Of a stretch of 5,317 nucleotides of DNA, positions 141 to 5,316 are shown piece by piece (the first letter of the stretch is position 1; each line of letters starts with the position of its first letter). The DNA lies in the NCBI GenBank assembly GCA_003644335.1, contig QNCB01000116.1, positions 1-5,317 of the forward strand, in the 5' to 3' direction. Origin of the DNA: Planctomycetota bacterium. GTDB taxonomy: Bacteria > Planctomycetota > Phycisphaerae > SM23-33. The notes under the pieces were generated by a model that searched no databases, was not told the DNA's origin, and saw only the letters and a program-made list of their open reading frames with translations. A program made the translations under genes and the position numbers.

Positions 141-1910
141 TTAAGAAGTCTGTACCAGTTTTTTTTGCGACTCCTTGCCTTTTTGCCAAAATTCAAGGCA
201 AAACGCCATAAATATACCAAGCACCAAACTGGCAACTCCAGCGAGAGCAACCATGCGTTTTTTCTTAGGCCCAACTGGCTCATCAGGCTTGAATGCCATC
301 GAAACAGCCTTTACCTCTCCCAGCTCCATTGCCTTGGCAATGCGAGCTCCTTCTATTTTCGAGGCCAAAGTTGCATAGCCTTTCTTGGCAATATCCAGCT
401 GTCGATTTAGTTCCGTAAGCTTTGTTCTTTTTGCGTTGATCGCCACTTTTAAGGTCTTCACTTTGGCCTCTAACCTCTTTACCATTTCTTTCGAATATGA
501 AAGCGTGAATTCAATTTTTGCAATTTCTGTCTCAAGAGAATTTTTCTGGCTTTGAGCTGTTTTCAACCGACCATAAAAAAAATCATAATTGGCCTGTGCC
601 ATATTAAGATTTTCATTAAGTGTTTTTAATCTGTTATTGTCGGCAAAAACACTGTTCTCCAGAGCTACCCACTCTTTTTCCTGCTGTTTTAATTTCGAAC
701 TTAAAGACTGTCCGCGCGTTTCAAAAAAGTTATATCCACTTGTAAGGGATAAAAGTTCCCATACAGTAGATTCCGACAAATTCTCTGCTATTGGGCCTTG
801 ACGGTTTCTTAACATGTCCAAATTAACTCTTGAGTTTAGATTGGCTTTTGTAGATTCTCCTAGTTGTCTTATCTGGGCTAGGCGAACTTTATCATTTACC
901 AGGTTTGTTTTTTTGCGTTCTACCTCTGCTCTCAGCAGCATTATTTTTGAATCATTTATAAAGTTCTCAACTTTTTTCCTGTTATTTTCGAGATTCTGCC
1001 TTGCCATTAAAACCTTTTGTCGCAATACGTTCTGCTCGTCACTTAAAGTCTCGTCAACAAAATACTCTTGGCCAAGTTTTTGAACATTAAAAGCCCCAAG
1101 CCAAGTGCCGTCTTTTGTCATAGCAGCAATATCGGCATCTACTTTCATTAGCTGCCTTTTCTTTTCTTGAAGCTTAAAGTCGAGTTCGTGGACCTTTGCA
1201 TAATGCGCCTTGAGCTGACTAGAGTTTTCCTTCAACTCTATTTCCGTAAGCAAAAGTTGTTCTTTAACGTCAAAATCCTTTACCGCCTGCTCCGCCTTAA
1301 TCAAGCTGCCTCCAACCAACTTGAACTGGTCTTCAATAAACTTTCCGGAACCCTTGAGTTCACCTGTAATTATCTCTAAGCTGTATTTGACATACTCATC
1401 AGCCCAGATATTTGCAATATCCTCAGCAGTACCGGGGTCTTTGTCTTTAACGGCCAGCTGTAGAATGTTGGTTTCTTCGGTATCTTCAACATCCAACTTC
1501 CGATAAAGCCCCTCAAGTGTTAAATTCTTATCCCACTTCCCCTCTAACTTTAGCCGATTTATCACCCTTTCTAATACAGCGTTGGATTTCAACAGAATCT
1601 TATGCGTAAGAATTGATATAGCCGGTCTCTGTGCAACATATGCTCCCGTTTTTGTTTTTTTAGAATTCAGGAAAATCTTGCTAGGCGAAAGGGCACTTTG
1701 TATCTTTGAAGGCATGATCATTACCGAGGCGGAAGCCTGGTAAACTTTCGGTAAAAGCAGGCTTAAAATTGCCGTTACGATAACAGCTATCAAAAAAGTG
1801 CCTATTATTAACTTTCTCCTTTTTACAATAATCTGAAAATAATCCATCAGGTTTATTTCATCTTCGTAGATATTTGCATTTTCCGAATCGTTATTTTCCA
1901 AATTTGCCAT
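141..1910 (-). CDS. Wzz/GumC-type polysaccharide co-polymerase (chain-length determinant), no kinase domain
   Basis: A 589-residue inner-membrane protein with the layout of the polysaccharide co-polymerase (PCP) family, which sets chain length and couples polymerisation to export of capsule, exopolysaccharide or O-antigen. Residues 17-33 (INLMDYFQIIVKRRKLI) are the typical Wzz N-terminal cytosolic lead-in, followed by membrane segment 1 (about 34-54) and the periplasmic start VYQASASVMIMPS. Residues about 95-180 match the conserved Wzz head, with a 'LKSNAVLERVINRLKL' stretch. Residues about 190-530 are mostly heptad-like, charged coiled coil. A proline-rich KPDEPVGP (541-548) precedes membrane segment 2 (about 553-574) and a short basic tail. 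No Walker A/B or tyrosine-rich tail follows, so a BY-kinase, if used, must be separate. The start is ATG with GAAAGG seven bases upstream (complement of 1918-1923). The gene is clearly AT-richer than its neighbours and lies downstream of the transferase gene across a 510-bp gap, so it probably has its own promoter. The family assignment is firm; which polymer it serves is unknown. Confidence 0.9.
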   Translation of the reverse strand: MANLENNDSENANIYEDEINLMDYFQIIVKRRKLIIGTFLIAVIVTAILSLLLPKVYQASASVMIMPSKIQSALSPSKIFLNSKKTKTGAYVAQRPAISILTHKILLKSNAVLERVINRLKLEGKWDKNLTLEGLYRKLDVEDTEETNILQLAVKDKDPGTAEDIANIWADEYVKYSLEIITGELKGSGKFIEDQFKLVGGSLIKAEQAVKDFDVKEQLLLTEIELKENSSQLKAHYAKVHELDFKLQEKKRQLMKVDADIAAMTKDGTWLGAFNVQKLGQEYFVDETLSDEQNVLRQKVLMARQNLENNRKKVENFINDSKIMLLRAEVERKKTNLVNDKVRLAQIRQLGESTKANLNSRVNLDMLRNRQGPIAENLSESTVWELLSLTSGYNFFETRGQSLSSKLKQQEKEWVALENSVFADNNRLKTLNENLNMAQANYDFFYGRLKTAQSQKNSLETEIAKIEFTLSYSKEMVKRLEAKVKTLKVAINAKRTKLTELNRQLDIAKKGYATLASKIEGARIAKAMELGEVKAVSMAFKPDEPVGPKKKRMVALAGVASLVLGIFMAFCLEFWQKGKESQKKLVQTS

Positions 1911-2420: not shown

Positions 2421-3944
2421 CTACGAGGAATAATTCTCGCCGGGGGATGAGGCGGCGAGAGTTTGTTTTTCGTAGGCTATTTTATCCTGCTCCTCGAAAA
2501 CCGTATCCAGGGTGTGCTCGTCGAGCAGTCTGCCAAAAAGCGACACCCGCCTTCCGATAGCTTCCAGGGAGTCTTGTACCGGCACGTCGATTTCCACATG
2601 AATCAGCACCTTGGCCAATTGCGAGCGTACGGGGATGCTCAGGTGCATCGTATCTTCCGCTCCGTTATCTGTAGGCCTGCTGTACGTCAGTGTTTTTATC
2701 TCGTCGCTGGCGGGGTCGCGATATTGAATAACGATCCGCTCGAAGCCCATCTTGCGGGCCATCCTCCGCACAGCAAGCCACCATTGCTTAAACGTCCACG
2801 CCCGCTTGATGCGATTTTGCATATGTTCAAAATCTTTGCGGTCATTGCGAAACTCCCGCATGCGAGCGAGGTTGGACTGGACTTGCTCAAACATTTTCCG
2901 GAACCGCAGCACGCCAGCTATCCTGAACACAGCCAATAAAATAAGCATGGAAACCACGAGAACTATCAGCTCGCCACCCTCTTCCCGCAGGAACATCATC
3001 AGCGCAGCCAAGCCTACTATAGCCAGCGTGATCAGATACATTACGATGACGGTGTTGCGGTGATTCAAGCCCATATCGAGCAGGCGGTGGTGTATATGTC
3101 CGCGGTCGGCGGAGAAGATACTCCGCCGCTCCAATACCCGCCGCACGATCGATATCAGCATGTCGAAAAGGGGCAAGCCCAACGCCAGGGCGGGCAGGAG
3201 CAAGCCTACGACCGTGGCTACTTTCGCGGTACAAATAACGCTGGATGTCGCGAGGAAGAACCCCAGAAACATACTCCCGCTGTCGCCCAGGAATATCTTG
3301 GCTGGGTTGAAATTGAAGAAAAGAAAACCCACCAGACTCCCGAACAGGATCGCCATGAGAATCGCCATTGCCACCTGCCCGGTATAGGCGGAGAAGACGC
3401 CTATCACAACGCAGGTCGTCGCGCAAATCCCCGCGGACAGCCCGTCGAGTCCGTCGATAAGGTTCACCGCGTTGGTTATGCCGACGATCCAGAGTATCGT
3501 AACAGGCCAGGCCATCCAACCGAACCACCACCCAAACAAAGTAACCTGGTCGATGCGGATTCCATAGCTGCAAACGACGATAGCTGCGATTAGCTGGACG
3601 GCAAGTTTCGCACTTGCCCGCATTCCCCAAATGTCGTCAATCAGTCCGAAAAGGAAAACAAAGCCGCCGCAGACGAAGAGGACGAGAAGTTTGCTGTGCA
3701 GCTCCCTGAAAACCTCACTGGCGTGCGTGTCGAAGAGGAGCATGCCGACAGTAACCAGAATCAGTGAAACAAAGATAGCGACTCCGCCGATGCGAGGGGT
3801 CGGCAGAGCGTGCACGCTCCGGGTGTTTCTCGGTGCGAAAAGTTTGATCCTGTGCGCGAACCAGACCATCCCCTGCGTAACCACCAACCCCAGCAGCATC
3901 GCAGAAAGAAACACACCAGCGTATGTCCACAGCATTCTTTGCAT
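2421..3944 (-). CDS. WecA/TagO-type polyprenyl-phosphate sugar-1-phosphate transferase with C-terminal extension
   Basis: Integral membrane enzyme of the MraY/WecA/TagO superfamily. It moves a sugar-1-phosphate (usually N-acetylhexosamine) from a UDP-sugar to undecaprenyl phosphate, starting a glycan on the cytosolic face. Visible motifs (507-residue numbering): HALPTPRIGG (45-54), the Mg-binding DD pair (103-104), NAVNLIDGLDGLSAG (158-172) with D164 and D167, NFNPAKIFLGDSGS (211-224), and DRGHIHHRLLDMGL (280-293). The HIHH form fits WecA/TagO rather than MraY. About eleven membrane segments end near residue 345. The family usually stops near 350 residues; here about 150 more follow, cytosolic-looking, with basic helices and a mixed alpha/beta region of no family I recognise. 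I chose the ATG at 3944: a TTG three codons earlier (3953) has the purine-rich GGTGAG only two bases away, whereas from the ATG the spacing is 11. It lies divergent to coaX and upstream of the co-polymerase gene. The acceptor sugar cannot be told from sequence. Confidence 0.9.
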   Translation of the reverse strand: MQRMLWTYAGVFLSAMLLGLVVTQGMVWFAHRIKLFAPRNTRSVHALPTPRIGGVAIFVSLILVTVGMLLFDTHASEVFRELHSKLLVLFVCGGFVFLFGLIDDIWGMRASAKLAVQLIAAIVVCSYGIRIDQVTLFGWWFGWMAWPVTILWIVGITNAVNLIDGLDGLSAGICATTCVVIGVFSAYTGQVAMAILMAILFGSLVGFLFFNFNPAKIFLGDSGSMFLGFFLATSSVICTAKVATVVGLLLPALALGLPLFDMLISIVRRVLERRSIFSADRGHIHHRLLDMGLNHRNTVIVMYLITLAIVGLAALMMFLREEGGELIVLVVSMLILLAVFRIAGVLRFRKMFEQVQSNLARMREFRNDRKDFEHMQNRIKRAWTFKQWWLAVRRMARKMGFERIVIQYRDPASDEIKTLTYSRPTDNGAEDTMHLSIPVRSQLAKVLIHVEIDVPVQDSLEAIGRRVSLFGRLLDEHTLDTVFEEQDKIAYEKQTLAASSPGENYSS

Positions 3945-4108
3945 AGCTACCAAAACTCACCAAAAGTGTTTTAGTCGTTCCAGTCAAGAGGGTAAGGTAT
4001 GCCATCCACCACCGATTTGCAACAGGATTCTGGCTGGCGGACAGGTTGGTTGTGCGACATAAATTTGGGGCGGGGTTAGAATGCCTTTCAAACACACAGC
4101 CCGGCTCC

Positions 4109-4153
4109 GGGGGCTTACGCCCCCTGCTAAAATTTGGCCGGCCCTTCGGGGTT
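4109..4153. repeat. Pair of GC-rich hairpins, one with a UUCG loop
   Basis: The first hairpin is GGGGGC (4109-4114), loop TTAC, GCCCCC (4119-4124), a perfect 6-bp stem. The second is CCC (4142-4144), loop TTCG, GGG (4149-4151), extendable by two G-T wobbles, which gives a C(UUCG)G tetraloop, known to be very stable in plus-strand RNA. They lie between the divergent transferase and coaX genes. No T run follows, so this looks like a dispersed palindromic repeat rather than a terminator. Confidence 0.45.
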
Positions 4154-4177
4154 AAGCAGAAAAAAAGCGTGAACGGT

Positions 4178-4308
4178 GAGCTAATTGCAAAAATGTAGCC
4201 CAGCCGCCCTCGGCTGGGAAGGTCGTATGAAAAACACTGGAAATATAGCAAGTTCAACACAGCCGAGGGCGACTGTGCTACATTTCCGAATAGTTTTGCA
4301 ATTGGCTC
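4178..4308. repeat. REP/BIME-like inverted pair of GTAG-hairpins with terminal inverted repeats
   Basis: Two hairpins face each other. Left: GTAG (4195-4198), stem CCCAGCCG / CGGCTGGG (4199-4206, 4211-4218), loop CCCT. Right, read on the minus strand: GTAG (4281-4278), stem CACAGTCG / CGGCTGTG, same loop CCCT. The 24-nt copies agree at 21 positions. Two of the three differences are the two sides of one stem pair (C-G against A-T), and the third gives a G-U wobble in minus-strand RNA. Outside them, GAGCTAATTGCAAAA (4178-4192) and the complement of 4294-4308 form a 15-nt inverted repeat with one mismatch; the right side has about 10 extra bases between it and its hairpin. GTAG at the foot of a hairpin, in inverted pairs in extragenic DNA, is the hallmark of REP/BIME sequences moved by RAYT (Y1 HUH) transposases. 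No such gene is in this window. The structure is seen; the REP identity is inferred. Confidence 0.65.
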
Positions 4309-4331
4309 TGGTTACAAATAAATATTCCCTT

Positions 4332-4355
4332 CTCTGCGAACTCAGCGTCTCTGCG
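4332..4355. repeat. Short-period block of CTCTGCG type
   Basis: CTCTGCG (4332-4338), CTCAGCG (4341-4347) and CTCTGCG (4349-4355) are spaced 9 and 8 bases apart. It shares its core with the 1961-1987 block. It sits just before a possible TTG start at 4362 that I reject for coaX, and about 30 bases before the candidate coaX promoter. Confidence 0.5.
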
Positions 4356-4385
4356 AGATAATTGCATATAGCCACACGAGCTGGC

Positions 4386-4414
4386 TTGATTTTGCGACGG
4401 AAAGGCTTTATAAA
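4386..4414 (+). promoter_or_regulatory. Candidate sigma-70-type promoter of coaX
   Basis: TTGATT (4386-4391) and TATAAA (4409-4414) are separated by exactly 17 bases, matching four of six and five of six consensus positions. Transcription would begin around 4421-4422, at or next to the coaX ATG, giving a leaderless or nearly leaderless message. The -10 overlaps the AAAGG that would otherwise be the Shine-Dalgarno site, so the two readings compete. Prediction only; the organism's sigma-factor preferences are unknown. Confidence 0.4.
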
Positions 4415-4416
4415 GG
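4412..4416 (+). promoter_or_regulatory. Ribosome binding site deciding the coaX start
   Basis: AAAGG lies five bases before the ATG at 4422. It favours this start over an in-frame TTG at 4362, which has no purine-rich site and lies just behind the CTCTGCG repeat. It is useful only if transcription starts upstream of the candidate promoter at 4386-4414. Confidence 0.5.
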
Positions 4417-4421
4417 CTGCG

Positions 4422-5234
4422 ATGTCCGAAGAACTTGAAAATATCGAAAACGCCGAAAAAATCCCTAACGTATTGGCTTGCGATTGCGGCAACAGCACCA
4501 TCGCCCTGGGATGGGTGCATAGCGAGACGGTTTGCGACGCCCAGACATTTGCGTTGGACGCCCCAGCTGAGCTGGGCCAGGCCTTGTCTAAGCTATGGGC
4601 TAAGATGCCCCAGCCTAGGTGCGTCGCAGCTGCCAGCGTGAACCCCTCAGCGACGAAAGCTCTCCAAGCCAGCGTCAAACAGGCGACGGGCCAAGGCGTG
4701 CTGGTGGTAGGCCTGGACCTGCCCCTGCCGATAGAGGTTTCCCCAGCCCTGGCCAACCCCGAGCGAATCGGCACGGACAGGCTGTGTTGTGCGGTCGCAG
4801 CCTTCGACAAGCTAGGCTCAGCCTGTGTAGTCGCGGATTTCGGATCGGCTGCGACTATCGACTGCGTCAACGACGAGGGCGTCTTCATGGGCGGAGCGAT
4901 TCTCCCGGGCCTAGCCATCGCGGCAGAAGCCCTGGGCGAGAAGACCGCACAGTTGCCCCGCGTGGAACTCGCCCAGCCTGATGGGGTTTTCGGCACGGAC
5001 ACCGCGGGGGCTATTCGACTTGGCCTGATCCGCGGAATGCGAGGCTCGCTGCGAGAGCTGACAGAAGCCTACGCCACCGAGCTTGGCACCTGGCCTGCCG
5101 TTATCATCACCGGCGGCGAGGCGAAACTCATCTGCCCAAACCCAGGCCAAAATGGCTTGGTACAAGCACTCGTGGAAGACCTCTGCCTCCGCGGCGTCGC
5201 GATGGCATACTACAAATCGCTGCTGCAAGAATAG
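4422..5234 (+). CDS. coaX: Type III pantothenate kinase
   Basis: A 270-residue cytosolic enzyme that phosphorylates pantothenate with ATP, the first step of coenzyme A synthesis. It belongs to the ASKHA fold; family knowledge says it needs a monovalent cation and resists CoA feedback. Motifs in order: DCGNSTIALGW (21-31, phosphate-binding DxGN), ERIGTDR (114-120) with the likely catalytic aspartate D119, DFGSAATID (139-147, second phosphate motif, with S in place of the usual T in GTA), GGAILPGL (157-164), LP (178-179), and ITGGEA (229-234, adenosine motif, with E where D is common). The length matches the usual 250-270 if translation begins at the ATG at 4422, preceded by AAAGG. An earlier TTG (4362) would add 20 unconserved residues encoded next to a repeat. 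It ends in TAG eight bases before a long inverted repeat. It is the GC-richest gene here and divergent from the transferase. The identification is firm; the two motif substitutions are conservative. Confidence 0.93.
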   Translation: MSEELENIENAEKIPNVLACDCGNSTIALGWVHSETVCDAQTFALDAPAELGQALSKLWAKMPQPRCVAAASVNPSATKALQASVKQATGQGVLVVGLDLPLPIEVSPALANPERIGTDRLCCAVAAFDKLGSACVVADFGSAATIDCVNDEGVFMGGAILPGLAIAAEALGEKTAQLPRVELAQPDGVFGTDTAGAIRLGLIRGMRGSLRELTEAYATELGTWPAVIITGGEAKLICPNPGQNGLVQALVEDLCLRGVAMAYYKSLLQE

Positions 5235-5242
5235 ACCTTTCA

Positions 5243-5316
5243 ATTTCGGATTTTGGATTGCGGATTTCGGATTGGATACACGAGCAATCCGAAATCTGAA
5301 ATCCAAAATCCGAAAT
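5243..5316. repeat. Large inverted repeat of heptanucleotide units downstream of coaX
   Basis: Arm 1 (5243-5274) and arm 2 (5285-5316) are complementary at 30 of 32 positions; one of the two exceptions is a G-U wobble in plus-strand RNA. The loop is 10 bases (GATACACGAG). Arm 1 is itself a tandem of 7-nt units: TTTCGGA, TTTTGGA, TTGCGGA, TTTCGGA, TTG. Starting nine bases after the coaX stop, it would form a long stem at the 3' end of the coaX transcript and could protect it or stop transcription. The window ends one base later, so a following T run cannot be seen. Similar 'ATCCGAAATCC' strings are, from memory, common in environmental genomes. Confidence 0.75.

Follow-up and report, generated by a model that had tools for sequence, protein, structure and literature searches.

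A probable REP heterodimer of a planctomycete GTAG family, framed by outer inverted repeats between divergent genes

Introduction

What is the long inverted repeat that occupies the gap between two divergent genes in a 5,317-nt stretch of DNA from a Planctomycetota bacterium (contig QNCB01000116.1; the whole stretch is called the window below)? An earlier note on this DNA took it for a REP/BIME-type inverted pair of GTAG-footed hairpins set within outer inverted arms. It supposed that a matching RAYT transposase family may exist in the genome, and proposed to look for further copies of the hairpin and for such a gene flanked by it. In E. coli, the GTAG hairpin is recognised by TnpA_REP as single-stranded DNA, whereas its complement is not, and the cut falls on the 5' or 3' side of the hairpin (PMC8266576); sequencing reads have shown that REPINs are excised as units (PMC3116915, Bertels and Rainey 2011). 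GTAG REPs have already been reported in planctomycetes, several of the 24 printed REP families residing in R. baltica and O. terrae (PMC3733652, Di Nocera et al. 2013). No paper came up in term searches of the literature that combined REP with Planctomycetota or RAYT with Phycisphaerae.

Results

Anatomy and setting of the element

The features of the window discussed here are as follows.

141-1910, minus strand: Wzz/GNVR chain-length protein gene
2421-3953, minus strand: glycosyltransferase family 4 (GT4) gene
4178-4192, plus strand: left outer inverted arm, GAGCTAATTGCAAAA, 2 nt from the GTAG of copy A
4195-4218, plus strand: REP copy A, with GTAG foot, 8-bp stem and CCCT loop; C-G subtype at stem pair 2
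4219-4257, no strand: 39-nt spacer of the head-head REP dimer
4258-4281, minus strand: REP copy B, with GTAG foot, 8-bp stem including one T.G pair and CCCT loop; A-T subtype at stem pair 2
4294-4308, minus strand: right outer inverted arm, 12 nt from the GTAG of copy B
4362 or 4422 (start) to 5234, plus strand: coaX, type III pantothenate kinase gene

The two inverted 24-nt hairpins with a shared CCCT loop were found as the earlier note had described them, copy A reading GTAG-CCCAGCCG-CCCT-CGGCTGGG and copy B GTAG-CACAGTCG-CCCT-CGGCTGTG. In both, GTAG lies directly 5' of a short palindrome, as in GTAG REPs, and faces outward. The inner 26-nt arms of the structure are 92% complementary. The outer 15-nt inverted repeats, likewise seen where they had been placed, are 93% complementary and fall within the 15-30 bp range of MITE terminal inverted repeats. 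The stems of A and B differ at pair 2 (C-G to A-T), the difference that had been pointed out, and also at pair 6 (C-G to T.G), which had been overlooked; the T.G pair exists on the GTAG strand, the complement having C.A. The 24-mer of copy A recurs in related genomes, and the stem letters of copy B, with a GTGG foot, adjoin a RAYT gene in one of them (locus L230).

The GT4 gene and coaX start divergently, and the pair sits in the gap between them. This is the extragenic position of GTAG REPs; most published REPs, however, lie between convergent or unidirectional genes (PMC3733652), and this difference speaks against the reading preferred below. Among the 120 matches listed for CoaX, the four with a visible organism are two Phycisphaerae, one Planctomycetota and one Bacteroidetes; the four glycosyltransferase relatives with the lowest E values come from MAGs titled Phycisphaerae, Phycisphaerales or Sedimentisphaerales. 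Just upstream of the REP element, positions 4107-4152 (plus strand) weakly match the Acido-Lenti-1 RNA (RF01687), the score of 18.5 bits falling short of the gathering score, 37 (E 0.021 for 141 bases, 0.074 for 501). An AT-rich 32-nt inverted repeat, 94% complementary with a 10-nt gap (5243-5316), closely follows coaX and closes the window.

On its GTAG strand, copy B was predicted to form the 8-bp hairpin plus an extra G.T pair at -6.8 kcal/mol (7 of 200 shuffles as good), slightly better than its complement (-5.0 kcal/mol; 17 of 200). Copy A reached -10.7 kcal/mol on either strand. The 146 nt between 4170 and 4315 fold as one long hairpin (-35.4 kcal/mol, shuffle mean -16.8, z -6.4), so that two inverted REPs with GTAG outside and a foldable spacer, the make-up of a REPIN or BIME, are all present. 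Chance is a poor source for this arrangement: in 1000 dinucleotide shuffles of the 468-nt intergenic region two such GTRG hairpins never arose and at least one arose in 10, while 15-nt arms with at most one mismatch within 200 nt appeared in none of 300 shuffles, against three arm pairs observed, a figure that counts the REP arms themselves. Across 33 sequences (the window and loci L001-L032) there was no excess of GTAG at hairpin feet; four hairpins were so footed, and two of these lie in the window.

Copies of the hairpin in related genomes

Copies beyond the window, which the note had proposed to look for, were found in relatives. A class sample of 397 genomes was drawn from a larger group; it represents the class of G016, a MAG with a locus (L017) that bears the title Phycisphaerae. 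Of these genomes, 40 have the hairpin pattern with one mismatch at most, in 1 to 188 copies each. The highest numbers are those of G231 (188), G128 (117), G076 (90) and G220 (69), and the pattern written backwards matched nothing in the 397 rows. A set of 29 genomes reached through the glycosyltransferase scan gave six with the hairpin at up to two mismatches (19 copies in G012, 62 in G013, 86 in G016, 56 in G018, 14 in G020 and 19 in G027), the backwards control matching once across all 29. A draw from the phylum gave five of 236, two of which (G016 and G084) were already known. Judged by the counts across these three sets, the family is patchy in its distribution; it is absent from G118, G106, G063 and G056, the class-sample genomes with the best CoaX matches.

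Covariation and two stem subtypes

The letters of six stem pairs were partly fixed in the search patterns, up to a few substitutions, whereas pairs 2 and 6 were unconstrained. With readings of the complementary strand removed (loop AGGG or GGGG), pair 2 is Watson-Crick in 165 of 180 places, where 74 would be expected if its two sides were independent. Among 66 distinct sequences, a set unfiltered for pairing that includes some chance pattern matches, 90.3% of cells are paired against 79.4% in shuffles, an overall figure inflated because six of the eight pairs were partly fixed by the pattern. The covariation score of the whole stem on these sequences is 0.277 (0.090 in shuffles, at most 0.102 for slid structures), and 47 cells are changed on both sides (11.6 in shuffles, at most 15 slid); the shuffles ignore relatedness, and a structure derived from the sequences tends to beat its own slid versions anyway. 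Pairs changed on both sides number six of eight, a value that slid structures also reach. The stem of the family thus keeps its pairing through compensatory changes, as GTAG REPs do. There are 14 G.T cells and 8 C.A cells, too few to make a case for strand specificity.

Pair 2 also separates the two orientations of neighbouring copies. It differs between the members in 22 of 32 head-head (inverted) pairs and in 1 of 26 tandem pairs (Fisher 3e-7). The comparison left out pairs with a member below 7/8 stem pairs, namely 3 of 29 tandem and 1 of 3 tail-tail pairs and the head-head pair of L144; its head-head set of 32 shares 31 pairs with the 32 dimers used for the outer arms below and adds the second copy from G112 (L282). 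The loci fetched are a non-random sample, some having been chosen for looking like inverted pairs, and the dimers are not independent counts because some genomes contribute several (four from G020, three from L230); likeness of tandem copies may be mere local duplication. Halves of the window type (CCCAGCCG with CACAGTCG) occur three times in the RAYT locus of G393 (L230).

The note had read the C-G/A-T difference as a pairing-preserving change between the copies. The covariation is real, and the stems of the copies keep their pairing. An origin of the difference by compensatory mutation at the window locus was nonetheless discarded, the same subtypes being joined in inverted pairs of other genomes. 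Because of this recurrence, the difference is best read, from the sequences compared, as two REP subtypes whose pairing was inherited. With halves from two slightly different subtypes, the palindrome formed by the inverted pair is imperfect. According to Di Nocera et al., heterodimers are preferential in most REP families; those authors offer no obvious explanation, suggesting that such pairs are perhaps protected from enzymatic removal (PMC3733652).

RAYT genes and their hairpins

Y1_Tnp genes are common (27 of 29 genomes), and the NCBIfam RAYT model matches in 323 of the 397 class genomes at E <= 1e-5, in 214 of them above its cut-off. All 40 hairpin genomes have some match to this model and are among the 323 (Fisher 3.5e-4; the 40 were read by eye from tables). 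Bare presence of a RAYT is weak evidence, since such genes and matches are so common.

Two proteins are more telling. P0121 (from G016) and P0122 (from G027) score 90.5 and 85.4 bits against the NCBIfam REP-associated tyrosine transposase (cut-off 80), and their genes stand among copies of the hairpin, seven of them around P0121. With Pfam Y1_Tnp, P0121 scores 23.9 bits, just over the cut-off of 23, and the whole reading frame of P0122 20.9, under it. The sole PDB match of P0121 is 4er8, TnpA_REP of E. coli (E 5e-5), and the motifs D-H-V-H and Y-I-C-A-N-P can be read in it. In the G016 locus, copies on the plus strand alternate with hairpins on the minus strand that have a different stem, GTGGCACCCCCG.

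At E <= 1e-50, 13 of the 397 genomes encode a close relative of P0121: 11 belong to the 40 hairpin genomes and 2 to the 357 in which the hairpin pattern is missing (Fisher 2e-10). At most seven candidates per genome were scored in this survey; scoring all candidates in the 40 hairpin genomes returned the same 11. Conversely, this threshold yields no relative of P0121 in 29 of the 40 hairpin genomes, and 2 of the 13 genomes with the P0121-type gene lack the hairpin pattern. Scanning 400 nt around each gene, with up to three substitutions and at least 7/8 pairs, placed the hairpin or a covarying variant beside the RAYT gene at 12 of the 13 loci. One of the 12 is weak (L256, a variant with 7/8 pairs that is possibly due to chance), and at L233 (G321) no such hairpin lies within 400 nt. 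A matching RAYT flanked by the hairpin, the arrangement of a REPtron, which the note had proposed to look for, is in this way found in relatives. Stem pair 4 varies with the locus: it is A-T in most, G-C in G101 (GTAGCCCGGCCG) and C-G in G044 (GTGGCTCCGCCG), the last being one of the two RAYT genomes without the search pattern.

Other RAYT genes have other neighbours. The regions around RAYT-type genes in G012 (L128) and at C265 of G027 (L130) contain no such hairpin. Nineteen more distant RAYT loci (L236-L254) have no intact one, related variants with at least seven pairs being confined to L254; 11 of the 19 contain two or more copies of some other GTRG hairpin. Around general matches to the RAYT model, 32 of 50 loci (L175-L224) have a GTAGGGT or GTAGGGC hairpin and four a window-type match, intact in L208 (G119) and L209 (G076), two genomes rich in the window-type hairpin, and weaker in L184 and L210. 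The 32 loci suggest, at the level of sequence, that each RAYT lineage may keep its own REP type.

Two further observations were made at these loci. In L116 (2742-2765) and L117 (4285-4308) the RAYT reading frame runs at its 3' end into a REP hairpin, which is read as GVAQPPPAGES. In G027 and G016, genes with an FGE-sulfatase domain lie between copies of the hairpin (L117 1057-3424, L126 1834-2910, L129 2035-2997), the one in L117 adjoining the RAYT gene.

Outer inverted repeats

Of 32 head-head dimers, 4 are surrounded by outer arms 15 nt or longer that are distinct from REP copies: those of the window, L144 (G112), and L075 and L124 (both G020). The remaining 28 have no 15-nt arms, or arms that are the REP copies themselves. 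The survey covered flanks of up to 40 nt, and a 16-nt match in L231 was excluded as a REP copy. An outer-arm score of 8 or more was reached by 9 of the 32 dimers and by 3.1% of a null set whose 99.5th percentile, 12, is the window's own score, and which includes pairs between two copies of one unit. Outer arms around REP dimers are thus rare, not unique.

In G020 and G112 the arms and the REP pair recur together. The former has two copies of a 127-bp unit, 97.6% identical, and the latter two of a 133-bp unit (at C14 and C230), 98.5% identical, in each case between different flanks. Both hairpins are intact in the C230 copy; in L144 the second is worn (below 7/8 pairs). The distances from arm to hairpin are asymmetric in all three genomes (2 and 12 nt in the window, 19 and 2 in G020, 17 and 3 in G112). 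A search with the G020 arms returned the two known pairs, the fifth match (two mismatches) being at control level; a search with the G112 arms returned one more diverged arm (three mismatches), whose 3021-base locus contains no window-type hairpin. No clear target duplication was seen by eye in the printed flanks of either unit. The arm sequences differ between genomes, and the window's arm followed by the start of the REP was found in none of 42 hairpin genomes, for which reason the arms were dropped as a fixed part of the REP family. The arm motif occurs a third time in the window, as GAGATAATTGCA at 4355-4366, here without a REP and beside a direct repeat, TCTCTGCGA, at 4331 and 4348.

Discussion

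We conclude, with a probability of about 0.88, that the element is a head-head REP heterodimer (BIME/REPIN) of a planctomycete GTAG REP family, its hairpins being putative sites of a cognate RAYT. The conclusion rests on its anatomy, its membership in the family by sequence, the covariation of the stem, the copy numbers in relatives and the RAYT genes that stand beside the same hairpin there, and it agrees with the earlier note's assignment to the REP/BIME type. The likeness to GTAG-tagged REPs as described in PMC3733652 extends to the GTAG/GTGG foot, stems mostly of 6-9 bp, a short loop, head-head inverted dimers that are heterodimers with spacers mostly of 20-100 bp, complementary alternatives among the stem residues that set subfamilies apart, and the presence of the same REP on the flanks of RAYT genes. 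As in the REPINs of PMC3116915, two inverted REPs and their spacer are predicted to fold into one hairpin. The consensus GTRGCNCAGCCGCCCYCGGCTGNG may be that of one of the 24 printed families, and we make no claim of exact-family novelty. Since some relatives have many copies of the hairpin, several of them beside a matching transposase gene, the window element is, its outer arms aside, an ordinary one.

How the outer arms came to surround this REP dimer can be explained in either of two ways: they are part of a larger REP-carrying unit, or they belong to a palindrome in which the dimer landed. If they are the ends of a MITE-like composite that has the REP pair as cargo or core, the 131-bp stretch would move whole. 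The two-copy units of G020 and G112, with arms and REP pair conserved between different flanks, speak for this, as does the lack of further arm pairs in G020, and arms of at least 15 nt at unequal distances from the hairpins are common to these units and the window. The same reading must accommodate the 28 of 32 dimers without arms of their own, arm letters that change from genome to genome with the window's combination absent from 42 hairpin genomes, flanks in which no clear target duplication meets the eye, and the G112 arm found apart from any window-type hairpin; on balance we regard it as possible but rather unlikely. A dimer that landed in a pre-existing palindrome, operator-like or terminator-like and upstream of both divergent genes, would account for the arm motif at 4355-4366, which occurs nearby without a REP and therefore leans towards a local motif. 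PMC3733652 describes REP dimers within what its authors call 'target palindromes', although arms travel with the REP in G020 and G112; this second account has a little under an even chance. The published cases, the A. variabilis GTAG-15 and H. neapolitanus CGTC-1 dimers, are likewise enclosed by longer outer inverted arms, and their authors report having found no REP-free palindromes. There the palindrome consensus is common to many dimers, whereas here the arms differ by genome and frame 4 of 32. With this precedent in print, and with the G020 and G112 units, the mixture of outer repeats and REP hairpins is less unusual than the earlier note had supposed.

Both accounts keep the REP. A third would dispense with it: instead of a mobile repeat, the stretch would form an RNA structure in the glycosyltransferase leader that acts locally as a regulator or attenuator. 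The strong folding of the stretch would suit this, as would the minus-strand hairpin of copy A, which is followed by a T-rich run and has a terminator-like score. On the other side, terminator-like matches number three in the region, against 1.1 +- 1.1 in shuffles, and no Rfam match above the gathering score is listed for 3950-4450. As the hairpin family is multi-copy, reaching 188 copies per genome in relatives and standing beside RAYT genes as well, we consider a regulatory RNA very improbable as the primary explanation. An intrinsic terminator was rejected on its position, the T-rich tail being on the minus strand but the hairpin lying upstream of both divergent genes, and an Rfam RNA was dropped since the matches were all below threshold.

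For the REP heterodimer, the published model supplies a mechanism by analogy. The hairpins would be single-strand recognition sites for the cognate RAYT (TnpA_REP, a Y1 HUH nuclease), and the inverted pair would be a non-autonomous mobile unit that this enzyme excises and inserts; the window element would then be a substrate of a P0121-type RAYT. We infer that the window's genome has or formerly had such a gene, and that binding, cleavage and movement of the element would follow the model. One departure from E. coli concerns the stem, where a bulge is reported to be required for activity (PMC8266576); the stem of the window's family is simple.

These results match one REP hairpin family with one RAYT subfamily in planctomycete genomes, and since stem pair 4 varies with the RAYT locus, the rules of recognition become testable. 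The two-copy units of G020 and G112 are material for studying how REP dimers get embedded in larger inverted repeats. It is conceivable, if on the whole improbable, that REP pairs of this family sometimes form the core of a longer mobile unit with arms acquired anew in each lineage, the 131-bp element being a REPIN-MITE hybrid; if true, such a hybrid would perhaps represent a step in the origin of new TIR-type elements.
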